From Sulfurovum sp. (GTDB lineage Bacteria > Campylobacterota > Campylobacteria > Campylobacterales > Sulfurovaceae), in contig JAKIUE010000013.1 of assembly GCA_021647715.1 (NCBI GenBank), positions 1 to 35,338 on the forward strand: a stretch of 35,338 bases of DNA, written 5' to 3'. This document shows, piece after piece, positions 28,940 to 33,494 of the stretch (its first letter is position 1; the number at the start of each line of letters is the position of its first letter). The notes under the pieces were generated by a model. That model did no database searches and was not told the DNA's origin. It was given only the letters and a program-made list of their open reading frames with translations. Made by a program: the position numbers and the translations under genes.

Positions 28940-29881
28940 ATGTCAATCAAATGTGCATTTGTATTTCCAGGTCAAGGGTCACAAGCAGTGGGTATGGGAC
29001 AAGACTTTTTTAATCATTCAGAAGTGGCTAAAAAGATGCTCATAGATGCCAGTACACAAACAGGCATAGACTTTACAGAATTGATGTTTCAAGAAAGTGC
29101 AATGTTGGGACAAACTGAATACACGCAACCTGCTATTTTACTTGTAGGTGCTATGGCACATAAGTTGTTTATTGATGCTACAGATATAAGGCCTGTACTT
29201 ACTATGGGACACTCTTTGGGTGAGTTTACTGCTTTGGTTGCTGCTGGTGCATTAGATGCAGTCGATGCTGTGAAACTGGTAAACCTTAGAGGTCAGCTGA
29301 TGGCTAAAGCATGTTCTAAACAAGAAGTAGGGATGATGGTATCTTTAGGGCTTGATGATGAAACGGTAGAAAAACTTTGCCAAGAGCAAAGAGATGCAGG
29401 GCTTCAGGTTTGGGCTGTGAACTATAACGCAGATGGTCAAATAGTCATCGCTGGGATTAAAAAAGATTTAGAACTTTTTGCACCTATGGTGAAAGAAGCA
29501 GGGGCAAAAAGAGCAATGTTGCTTGACATGTCCGTGGCTTCTCACTGTCCTTTACTAGAAAGTGCATCTGCACCACTAGAGGCAAAGCTCAAAGAGATGC
29601 TTAAAGATGAGTTCATCGCACCGGTTATTTCAAATGTAACGGCTAAGGCGTATAACACTAAAGCAGAAGCATTAGATTTATTGCCTCAGCAGTTAGTCAA
29701 GCCTGTGTTGTATAAGCACTCTATGGCAAATATTGATGATGATGTGGATTGCTATATTGAGTTTGGACATGGAAATGTGTTGAAGGGACTTAACCGTAAG
29801 GCTACGAAGAAACCACATTTTAATGTGAGTGATATGGCTTCTTTGGAGGCTACGATTGTGGCAATAAAAGAACTTGGATAG
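28940..29881 (+). CDS. fabD: Malonyl-CoA:ACP transacylase
   Basis: Moves malonyl from CoA to acyl carrier protein, supplying fatty acid elongation. The 313-residue protein has FVFPGQGSQAVGMG (8-20), the nucleophile elbow GHSLGEF with Ser92, VNLRGQLM, and the SVASHCPLLESA region with the active-site His. AAAGGAC precedes the ATG. A structured repeat element follows the stop. Confidence 0.97.
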   Translation: MSIKCAFVFPGQGSQAVGMGQDFFNHSEVAKKMLIDASTQTGIDFTELMFQESAMLGQTEYTQPAILLVGAMAHKLFIDATDIRPVLTMGHSLGEFTALVAAGALDAVDAVKLVNLRGQLMAKACSKQEVGMMVSLGLDDETVEKLCQEQRDAGLQVWAVNYNADGQIVIAGIKKDLELFAPMVKEAGAKRAMLLDMSVASHCPLLESASAPLEAKLKEMLKDEFIAPVISNVTAKAYNTKAEALDLLPQQLVKPVLYKHSMANIDDDVDCYIEFGHGNVLKGLNRKATKKPHFNVSDMASLEATIVAIKELG

Positions 29882-29908
29882 TATTTTTTGTTTAATTACC
29901 ATTTAGTT

Positions 29909-30052
29909 TAACTGTGGTGTTGTTATTCTCTTTACTTTTCTAGAAAAGTAAAATAAAAGTCGTCTCTCCTCTCATGCAATCCCGCAGGTACGAGGACAAA
30001 TCACTTCGTTTTCAAGGGTGTTCTGAGAGACAAGGCACGCTTTGCGTGATTA
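29909..30052 (+). repeat. Structured intergenic element, copy A (before mtnN)
   Basis: A 144-nt sequence, closely matched at 30814-30957. In order it holds a 22-bp perfect palindrome around TTCTAGAA (29931-29952), a stem GTCTCTC (29962) with GAGAGAC (30025), a 35-nt core (29968-30002) identical in both copies, an invariant TTTCAAGGGTGTT, and a hairpin CACGC-TTT-GCGTG (30036-30048). Stem positions differ between copies but remain paired. The strand is arbitrary. Confidence 0.9.
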
Positions 30053-30058
30053 ATGAAT

Positions 30059-30071
30059 GTGGCTTTGCCAC
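30059..30071 (+). other. Short hairpin just before the mtnN ribosome-binding site
   Basis: GTGGC-TTT-GCCAC forms a 5-bp hairpin that ends a few bases before the GTGGAG site of mtnN. It is present only beside copy A of the structured element and may affect mtnN initiation. Confidence 0.45.
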
Positions 30072-30085
30072 GAGTGGAGATTTAT

Positions 30086-30775
30086 ATGAAAATAGCTATT
30101 ATGGGGGCTATGCCTGAAGAGGTGGAGCCTATTGTTGCTAAGTTGAATAACTTAAAAAAGACGGATTATGCTGCCAATACCTACTATGAAGGTACGTATA
30201 ATGATCAAGAAGTGGTTGTAGCTTACTCTAAGATAGGTAAAGTTTTTGCTACTTTGACAGCTACTATACTTATAGAGAAGTTTGGCTGTGATACTTTACT
30301 TTTCTCTGGTGTGGCTGGTGCAATAAGTGATGAGCTTAAGATCGGTGATTTGATTATTGCTGATGGGCTTTGTCAGCATGACTTGGATATTACTGCATTT
30401 GGACATCCTTTTGGCTACGTACCAGAGGGTGAAGTCTGTATTCCTTCAGATGTAGAGCTACGAAATGTTGCCAAAGAGGTGGCTGCTTCTAAAGGTTTAG
30501 TACTTAAAGAAGGTATCATCGCTACGGGTGACCAGTTCGTAGCCAATGCAGAGCGTAAGGATTGGATAGGTTCTGAGTTTAAGGCGGATGCTTTAGAGAT
30601 GGAAGGTGCTTCGGTAGCTGTGGTGTGTTCTTCGCTGGGTGTGCCATTTTTTATTCTTCGTGCTATCTCAGATAGTGCAGATATGGATGCGAGTTTTAAT
30701 TTTGATGAATTTCTTGAAAGTTCTGCTAAGATAAGTGCAGATTTTATTCTTTCAATGGTGGATGCGATAAAATAG
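30086..30775 (+). CDS. mtnN: MTA/SAH nucleosidase (also aminofutalosine nucleosidase)
   Basis: Cleaves methylthioadenosine and S-adenosylhomocysteine; in Campylobacter and Helicobacter the same enzyme hydrolyses 6-amino-6-deoxyfutalosine for menaquinone synthesis. The 229-residue protein starts MKIAIMGAMPEEVEPIV with catalytic E12, and has FSGVAGAI, the substrate loop ATGDQFVAN, LEMEGASVAVVC and FILRAISDSAD with the catalytic Asp. ATG 30086 has GGAG; the earlier ATG at 30053 lies within the hairpin region and is rejected. Flanked by the two copies of the structured element. Confidence 0.95.
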   Translation: MKIAIMGAMPEEVEPIVAKLNNLKKTDYAANTYYEGTYNDQEVVVAYSKIGKVFATLTATILIEKFGCDTLLFSGVAGAISDELKIGDLIIADGLCQHDLDITAFGHPFGYVPEGEVCIPSDVELRNVAKEVAASKGLVLKEGIIATGDQFVANAERKDWIGSEFKADALEMEGASVAVVCSSLGVPFFILRAISDSADMDASFNFDEFLESSAKISADFILSMVDAIK

Positions 30776-30813
30776 TTTAGGTTTTATATGTTTGTCATAG
30801 TTCCTTATTGCTG

Positions 30814-30957
30814 TAACTGTGGCGTTGTTATTCTTCGTACTTTTCTAGAAAAGTACGCAAAAGTCGTCATTCCTCTCATGCAATCCCGCAGGTACGAGGA
30901 CAAATCGCTCTGCTTTCAAGGGTGTTAGGAACGACAAGGCACACTATCGTGTGATTA
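30814..30957 (+). repeat. Structured intergenic element, copy B (between mtnN and PP-loop ATPase gene)
   Basis: 144-nt partner of 29909-30052. The palindrome (30836-30857) has outer bases CGT/ACG in place of TTT/AAA. The identical 35-nt core is at 30872-30906. The last hairpin is CACAC-TATC-GTGTG (30939-30952). The outer stem pairs GTCATTCC (30866) with GGAACGAC (30928) with one mismatch. Confidence 0.9.
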
Positions 30958-30972
30958 GATGAGAGGTAAGTA

Positions 30973-31782
30973 GTGAATACAGAACAAGATAAGCAAAGAC
31001 GATCTAAAGCTAAGACTATACCTATGAGTAAAAAACTACTCAAAGTCATAGGCAAAACCAATGCTGAATTTAAACTCATAGGTGAGGGGGATAAGGTACT
31101 TGTGGGACTCAGTGGAGGGAAAGATTCTCTTTCACTTATACATGCACTTAAACACATACAACGTCATGCGCCATTTCGTTTTGAATTTGAGGCGTGTACG
31201 ATTAAGTATGGGATGCCTGATGAGCATTATGAGTTTTTAACGAAACATTGCGAAGAGTACGAGATAAAACATCATGTTTATGACACAAATATCTTTGAAG
31301 TATCTCAAGATGCTATACGTGAAAACTCCTCATTTTGTAGTTACTTTTCTCGTATGAGAAGAGGGGCACTCTATAGTTTCGCAGAAGATCATGGATTTAA
31401 TAAAATCGCTCTTGGTCATCATTTTGATGATACAGTAGAGAGCTTTTTTATGAACATGTTTTACAACGGAAGCATGAGAGCCTTAGCACCTATATACAAG
31501 ACAAGTCGTGGTGTACACCTCATACGTCCACTCATACAAGTACGTGAGCGTCAGCTACGTGATTTTGCTACAGAAAATAATTTACAAATCATCGGTGATG
31601 AGGCCTGTCCTGCCATGCTAAAAGATGTCAAAATGCCTCATGCAAGAGCCAGTACCAAGGCATGGCTCGCAGACATTGAAGCTAACAATAAAGATGCATT
31701 TAAAATGTTTAAAGCCTCGTTTAAACACATACATGATGATACTTTTTTAGACCCTGAGCGTTGGGATAGGGATGATATTTAG
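30973..31782 (+). CDS. TtcA-like PP-loop ATPase
   Basis: N-type ATP pyrophosphatase related to TtcA, which thiolates cytidine 32 of tRNA using an Fe-S cluster. The 269-residue protein has the PP-loop VGLSGGKDSLSL (S47-S52), FCSYFSRMRRGALY, IALGHHFDDTVESFFMNMFYNG and LIRPLIQVRERQLRDFA. Where TtcA has CSxC, this protein has C122-S-Y-F125, and only C212 remains of the second Cys pair, so cluster ligation differs or is absent. The start is GTG 30973 with AGAGG. From memory the gene keeps its place after fabD-mtnN in Campylobacter. Substrate uncertain. Confidence 0.85.
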   Translation: MNTEQDKQRRSKAKTIPMSKKLLKVIGKTNAEFKLIGEGDKVLVGLSGGKDSLSLIHALKHIQRHAPFRFEFEACTIKYGMPDEHYEFLTKHCEEYEIKHHVYDTNIFEVSQDAIRENSSFCSYFSRMRRGALYSFAEDHGFNKIALGHHFDDTVESFFMNMFYNGSMRALAPIYKTSRGVHLIRPLIQVRERQLRDFATENNLQIIGDEACPAMLKDVKMPHARASTKAWLADIEANNKDAFKMFKASFKHIHDDTFLDPERWDRDDI

Positions 31783-32809: not shown

Positions 32810-32833
32810 AACAAAAAATATTTGGAGGTTTTT

Positions 32834-33154
32834 ATGACAAAAAATTATATTATCAATAAATTATTAGAATTAAAACCTACACTTAAAAAAGAAGGTTTTA
32901 AAATAGTTGGCATATTTGGTTCATATGCAAGAGAAGACTATACTTCTAAAAGTGATATAGATATTTTATATACTTTAACTGACCCACATCAATTTATTAA
33001 ACTAAATGGTGGCTTTGGAGCTTTTACTAAGATACGAGAGATGAAAGAGTTCTTGGCAAAAGAATTTGGTAAAAATGTTGATTTTGTGGAAAAAAGTTCA
33101 CTTAGTCGTACTGGAAAAAAGTATATATTGGAAGACTTAGTAAGTGTCGCATAA
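32834..33154 (+). CDS. mntA: MntA-type nucleotidyltransferase antitoxin
   Basis: Minimal nucleotidyltransferase; in the studied MntA-HepT systems it neutralises HepT by adding AMP to it. The 106-residue protein has the family motif GIFGSYAREDYTSKSDIDIL with GSYAR at 29-33 and metal-binding D41 and D43. The start at ATG 32834 has a near-perfect GGAGG site. It overlaps hepT by 11 nt, so the two are translationally coupled in the order antitoxin then toxin. Confidence 0.9.
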   Translation: MTKNYIINKLLELKPTLKKEGFKIVGIFGSYAREDYTSKSDIDILYTLTDPHQFIKLNGGFGAFTKIREMKEFLAKEFGKNVDFVEKSSLSRTGKKYILEDLVSVA

Positions 33155-33494
33155 AAATTTAGCGAAAGTAGCTTTTGTATTGGAGATGATAGAGAACATA
33201 GAAACAGGATGTAGTCGCCATAGTGGTGTAAATGAAGCATTGGATGATGAAGTAGAAGGACGAGCTGCAATACTTATGTTTCTTCTTCAAATTGGAGAGG
33301 CTTTAAAAAATATAGATGCTAAAGATATGCCTAAATATGACTTAAATAGAGAAATCAAAGGTGCATATGACGTGAGAAACTTTATAGCACATGACTATGA
33401 AGGTGTGAACATCATAGTGATAGAAGCTATTTTGAAAGATAATTTGCCTGAGTTAAAAGTGAAGATGCAAAAGCTTTTTGATGATTGGTCTTGA
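33144..33494 (+). CDS. hepT: HepT-type HEPN-domain RNase toxin
   Basis: HEPN ribonuclease toxin partnered with MntA. The 116-residue, largely helical protein has the HEPN catalytic motif RNFIAHDY (R78 to Y85, form R-x4-H-x-Y), in which Tyr85 is the residue modified in characterised systems. The upstream part MIENIETGCSR and RAAILMFLLQIGEALKN is typical for the family. It starts at GTG 33144 within the mntA 3' end, with no strong ribosome-binding site, consistent with coupling. Confidence 0.9.
   Translation: MSHKNLAKVAFVLEMIENIETGCSRHSGVNEALDDEVEGRAAILMFLLQIGEALKNIDAKDMPKYDLNREIKGAYDVRNFIAHDYEGVNIIVIEAILKDNLPELKVKMQKLFDDWS

Follow-up and report, generated by a model that had tools for sequence, protein, structure and literature searches.

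The mtnN-like gene in this stretch of Sulfurovum sp. DNA (the window, 35,338 nt of contig JAKIUE010000013.1) stands between two copies of a hairpin-forming element. The locus raises the question of what this element is, which of its strands is under selection, and whether it acts on the genes beside it.

The two element copies in the window

An earlier note on the window had placed the copies at 29909-30052 and 30814-30957, and both were recovered there. The element as modelled, its parts and the neighbouring genes are as follows.

28940-29881, plus strand: fabD-like acyl transferase gene, upstream neighbour (PF00698)
29911-30051, plus strand: element copy 1 as modelled, fabD-mtnN gap (covariance model R1, 112.8 bits, E 3e-19)
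29931-29952, no strand: hairpin 1 of copy 1, a 22-bp palindrome
29962-30031, minus strand: hairpin 2 of copy 1, hypervariable arms 29962-29969 and 30024-30031 (covariation, strand test)
29974-29997, plus strand: 24-nt insertion ATGCAATCCCGCAGGTACGAGGAC in the hairpin-2 loop of copy 1 (missing from other copies; exact 24-nt alignment gap)
30036-30048, no strand: hairpin 3 of copy 1, CACGC/GCGTG (helix 4 covariation)
30086-30775, plus strand: mtnN-like nucleosidase gene, between both copies (PF01048)
30816-30956, plus strand: element copy 2 as modelled, mtnN-PP-loop gap (covariance model R1, 106.7 bits, E 5e-18)
30836-30857, no strand: hairpin 1 of copy 2, a 22-bp palindrome
30866-30935, minus strand: hairpin 2 of copy 2, arms 30866-30873 and 30928-30935 (covariation, strand test)
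30878-30901, plus strand: 24-nt insertion in the hairpin-2 loop of copy 2 (missing from other copies; exact 24-nt alignment gap)
30940-30953, no strand: hairpin 3 of copy 2, CACAC/GTGTG (helix 4 covariation)
30973-31782, plus strand: PP-loop ATPase gene, downstream neighbour (PF01171)

Conserved flanks extend copy 1 to about 29877-30061 and copy 2 to about 30782-30966. On the minus strand a U-run follows the hairpin-2 stem, being the complement of an A-run at about 29955-29958 in copy 1 and lying opposite the A-run at about 30859-30862 in copy 2. The two copies share an identical stretch of 35 nt (29968-30002 and 30872-30906), of which none is expected in shuffled sequences. The four compensatory changes described previously are real, with T-A and T-A becoming C-G and G-C in the outer palindrome, C-G becoming T-A in the stem, and G-C becoming A-T in the last hairpin. 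The statement that the stems stay paired holds for these changes, but it overlooked one unpaired stem position per copy, a C.T in copy 1 (GTCTCTCC/TGAGAGAC) and an A.C in copy 2 (GTCATTCC/GGAACGAC).

Elsewhere in the window, adjacent nucleotidyltransferase (PF01909) and HepT-like (PF01934) genes at 32822-33494 probably form a toxin-antitoxin pair of the HEPN/MNT kind.

Extent and location of the repeat family

A covariance model of 118 positions was built from 24 copies and detected the element in 57 of 78 Sulfurovum genomes, with 496 copies overall and 0 to 26 per genome. The window genome holds 10 of them (E<=0.01), and copies also lie on a record of Sulfurovum mangrovi. The search of this genome and its relatives that the earlier note had proposed yielded many intergenic copies with covariation, and its idea of a dispersed structured repeat was borne out: the repeat is intergenic, and the 197 copies examined showed real covariation. 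Neither pairing broken as often as kept nor a purely local duplication was found, and the idea of a structured element survives in altered form. More distant, weaker matches occurred in three other genera of the same family. Those in genera g11 and g17 retain the first two hairpins, together with the A-run and an almost unchanged hairpin-2 loop, but have no clear hairpin 3; those in genus g10 are weak.

The element is about 120 nt long, or about 160 nt with its conserved flanks, and consists of a palindrome, an A-run and a hairpin whose stem is hypervariable and whose loop is conserved; copies in this genus have a third hairpin as well. The signature of the family is the 8-bp hypervariable stem below the nearly invariant loop with the A-run alongside; the run counts at least 4 A in every copy tested, and four of its positions hardly vary. 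The hairpin-2 loop measures about 30 nt and includes two small internal pairs. Beyond the modelled part, a T-rich stretch of about 34 nt on the upstream side and a purine-rich one of about 10 nt on the downstream side are also conserved. A terminal stem linking these conserved ends was considered and rejected, as it shows no covariation. At three loci (L041 1414-1556, L053 1397-1539 and L217 2262-2449), hairpin 1 contains inserted short units of other kinds, and the hairpin loops of the element seem to collect insertions.

Rfam gave no match in the window and only scattered sub-threshold matches elsewhere, in line with the earlier failure to place the element in a known RNA family, and no paper naming this repeat in Sulfurovum was found in the literature searched. 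The family is previously undescribed and REP/BIME-like, and it adds a new repeat to a widespread sulfur-oxidising genus.

Copies sit at gene 3' ends, with 102 in co-directional, 69 in convergent and 5 in divergent gaps, compared with 36, 7 and 20, respectively, among background gaps of at least 100 nt without the element. In the broad sense of dispersed, intergenic repeats at gene 3' ends that avoid divergent gaps, the element is therefore REP-like. REPs, too, are intergenic and lie at gene 3' ends, their gaps being co-directional or convergent and rarely divergent, and Sulfurovum sp. NBC37-1 is reported with both GTAG- and CGTC-tagged REP superfamilies (PMC3733652). Tail-to-tail inverted pairs of the element occur at several loci.

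This distribution bears on the view that the two window copies are cis-regulatory leaders on the plus strand, serving mtnN and the PP-loop gene. Both copies do lie shortly before a start codon, and the 3' tail of the element is purine-rich and Shine-Dalgarno-like. Across the family, nevertheless, the copies adjoin many different and unrelated genes at their 3' ends, 69 of 176 between convergent genes; nearly all lack the supposed core, and the overall wobble skew given below lies on the opposite strand. Among the 30 mtnN loci inspected, the element was present at the fabD-mtnN junction in seven and at the mtnN-PP-loop junction in five, and most loci had neither, the same junctions carrying it in some species and being empty of it in others. 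A leader function is thus very improbable. The minus-strand U-run of both window copies points away from fabD, mtnN and the PP-loop gene; the copies are therefore not expected to terminate mtnN and are probably passive. In other species (L213, L226, L232, L235 and L240), the junctions around mtnN hold different, unrelated hairpin repeats, e.g., TAGGGTGGGTATTCTTACCCACCG, and the gap seems to be a hotspot of small repeats.

A different account treats the family as selfish DNA and nothing else: palindromes of the MITE or REP type that a transposase would recognise as single-stranded DNA hairpins and that lie at gene ends because insertion does least harm there. The patchy copy number, the junctions found both with and without the element, the conserved loop, the tail-to-tail pairs reminiscent of REP dimers and the similar distribution of REPs (PMC3733652) all agree with it. 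Y1/RAYT transposase matches did not correlate with copy number (rho 0.01), with no Y1 match in 11 of the 20 genomes holding at least 10 copies, and a RAYT/Y1 transposase was rejected as the driver; the association typical of RAYT-mobilised REPs is missing from this element. No target-site duplication, the mark of a classical MITE, was detected: flank matches stood at 5.53 against 5.44 in shuffled pairings, a comparison in which the exact element ends are uncertain. In addition, the wobble skew changes with the orientation of the adjacent gene, a dependence that would not be predicted if the hairpins were recognised only as DNA. Selfish DNA and nothing more is accordingly rather unlikely. A phage origin was also rejected, with no match in annotated phages and one in an IMG/VR contig.

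Two side observations were made among these genomes. One genome of the same genus (G141) has 23 Y1 transposase matches, several identically scored, and zero copies of the element. The 395-kb 'plasmid' of Sulfurovum mangrovi (NZ_CP087125.1, L403) encodes rplM, rpsI, sucCD and fumC and may be a piece of the chromosome or a second replicon.

Stem covariation and the probable selected strand

In 94 copies, 97.1% of the structure cells were paired compared with 85.5% after shuffling, and double-sided changes numbered 298 against 81, with slid controls all far lower. The hairpin-2 stem was perfect in 145 of 197 copies and took 42 different sequences, while its loop was nearly invariant. A scan of all column pairs placed the hairpin-2 stem pairs near the top and revealed two further pairs within the loop.

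Non-Watson-Crick pairs in the hairpin-2 stem of the 197 copies were unevenly divided, with 40 A.C, 9 G.T and 11 others (p=9e-6), and the A.C to G.T ratio over distinct stems was 36:8. An A.C on the plus strand is a G.U on the minus strand. The skew depended on context: the ratio was 29:1 at copies entered by a minus-strand gene and 11:8 at the others (permutation p=0.0008), or 25:1 and 11:7 over distinct stems, for a split that was chosen after the overall skew had been seen, with plain open reading frames as gene calls and related copies. The plus-strand reading adopted earlier does not agree with this pattern, which favours the opposite strand, and does so only where transcription of a gene runs in that direction.

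Simple mutation bias was rejected as the cause. At unpaired sites G>A changes are in excess by about twofold whichever the gene context, with no difference in the direction required, and mutation bias alone therefore fails to account for the contrast between the contexts. A DNA-level correction of the palindrome, suspected from the rarity of plus-strand G.U, was dropped because the A.C excess is tied to gene direction. The folding energy of the minus relative to the plus strand shifts in the same way as the wobble skew (p=0.001); minus-strand folding energy alone did not differ by gene context (p=0.39).

From sequence evolution and layout we infer that this dispersed REP/BIME-like intergenic repeat is, on balance, probably used as a one-directional terminator. 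Hairpin 2 would form an intrinsic terminator on the minus strand, where the stem is followed by two bases and 4-8 U, and would serve genes whose transcription enters from the 3' side of the element. The G.U pairs on that transcribed strand would be tolerated exceptions, expected only where such genes enter, as the 29:1 ratio suggests. At co-directional positions such as those of the window copies, the terminator would point away, and the element would be tolerated without stopping the genes. Several results count against termination. Intrinsic terminators have short loops, unlike the one here of about 30 nt, and termination does not explain why this loop is so strongly conserved. Window copy 1 folds no better than shuffled sequences (z -0.4 plus, -1.2 minus), and a terminator scan limited to loops of 3-8 picks hairpin 3 rather than hairpin 2. 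Among co-directional copies, 66 have the terminator idle and 36 the other orientation. Considered separately as a sign of terminator orientation, the distance to the next gene showed no difference.

Another account is that the family encodes small RNAs. Each would be a minus-strand transcript of about 70-80 nt with its 3' end at the U-run and would act by way of the conserved loop. The nearly invariant loop above a variable stem, kept in two other genera, fits such RNAs, as do the U-run at the 3' end and the strand skew itself. An independent RNA should, however, show the skew everywhere, and it is missing where no minus-strand gene enters; moreover, the up to 26 copies are tied to gene ends, and promoter evidence was not obtained for them. 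A small RNA family is thus improbable.

The analysis offers a way to read from sequence alone on which strand, and in which copies, the hairpin of a repeat is under selection as RNA. Whether REP-like repeats are parasites or serve as functional signals at gene ends, a long-standing question, thereby becomes testable for each copy.

The 24-nt insertion and comparison with known systems

What had been taken for a conserved single-stranded core is a separate insertion. Of the 35 identical nucleotides, 24 (29974-29997 and 30878-30901) are missing from the other copies of the genome: the insertion ATGNAATCCCGCAGGWACGAGGAC sits in the hairpin loop of both window copies and of none of the eight others. 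These read CTCTC followed directly by AAATCGCT or a close variant, while the window copies read CTCTC, ATGCAATCCCGCAGGTACGAGGAC and then AAATCGCT. The part conserved across the family is the loop on both sides of the insertion site. In genome G117 the downstream mtnN copy has the 24-mer and the upstream copy lacks it, as do the downstream copies in three further genomes. Concerted change between neighbouring copies would explain its presence in both window copies.

A third match in the window genome stands alone inside a transposase-like gene (integrase-core match just under the Pfam cut-off), whose homologues in two relatives lack it, one alignment showing a single gap of exactly 24 nt. In an Arcobacteraceae genome, the 24-mer appears as eight extra residues of a peptide deformylase-like gene, and it lies in frame in unrelated genes. 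A 21-nt core pattern was found in 26 of 175 family genomes, with 0 matches for the reversed pattern. Across 84,980 species genomes, 31 of 33 matches had titles that were read as Campylobacterota, and the other two were Rhizobium and Algibacter. Of 49 distinct copies with surroundings, 12 occupied the same place in the element loop under different stems; either the loop is a preferred target, or an insert-carrying lineage of the element has spread. The 24-nt unit is a micro-repeat in its own right that has entered the loop, and it is among the smallest dispersed units seen entering protein genes in frame.

The 24-mer often occurs within arrays of heptamer-like repeats such as AATCACA, AATAATG and AATCCAA (L076, L080, L087, L059, L070 and L118), and a longer form, GTCCGAGCGAAGCGACAACCCCGCAGGAACGAGGAC, is present in other genera. 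On the minus strand of L104, at about 1996-2015, it appears nested in a repeat resembling a CGTC-type REP (TCATTGCGAGGCACGAAGC...ATCC).

Taken together, a combined scenario can be offered tentatively, and with some doubt. A repeat that invades gene ends may have been recruited as a terminator depending on how it is oriented, with wobble pairing that varies by strand and context as the visible sign. Its loop may in turn be favoured as an insertion site by a 24-nt micro-element, which across Campylobacterota would insert with no duplication of the target and, within genes, in frame.

Among known systems, GTAG/CGTC REPs and BIMEs (PMC3733652) resemble the element as dispersed intergenic palindromes at gene 3' ends, rarely in divergent gaps, often in inverted pairs and uneven between species. 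They differ in size: REPs are palindromes of 20-40 bp with a stem of 5-13 bp and a loop of 2-20 bp, whereas the element spans about 120-160 nt (118 modelled positions), forms two or three hairpins and has a hairpin-2 loop of about 30 nt. It also lacks the unpaired GTAG/CGTC tag, since the GTC of a CGTC string at its stem is paired (positions 54-56 with 97-99), and has no link to a Y1/RAYT transposase. Intrinsic terminators of Bacillus cereus share the one-strand stem followed by a U-run and the switching of pairs mainly via G.U and rarely via A.C, with AU/GC switches passing via GU in 68 and via AC in 8 resolved cases (PMC5381666). The Sulfurovum hairpin differs in lying within a dispersed repeat, in its long conserved loop and in that its termination is deduced. 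The 24-mer measures only 24 nt (8 codons), varies in frame between genes and occurs in Campylobacterota without a known mobilising enzyme or tag, and in these respects departs from Rickettsia palindromic elements and intragenic REPs, which it resembles as a short dispersed unit lying in frame within protein genes.
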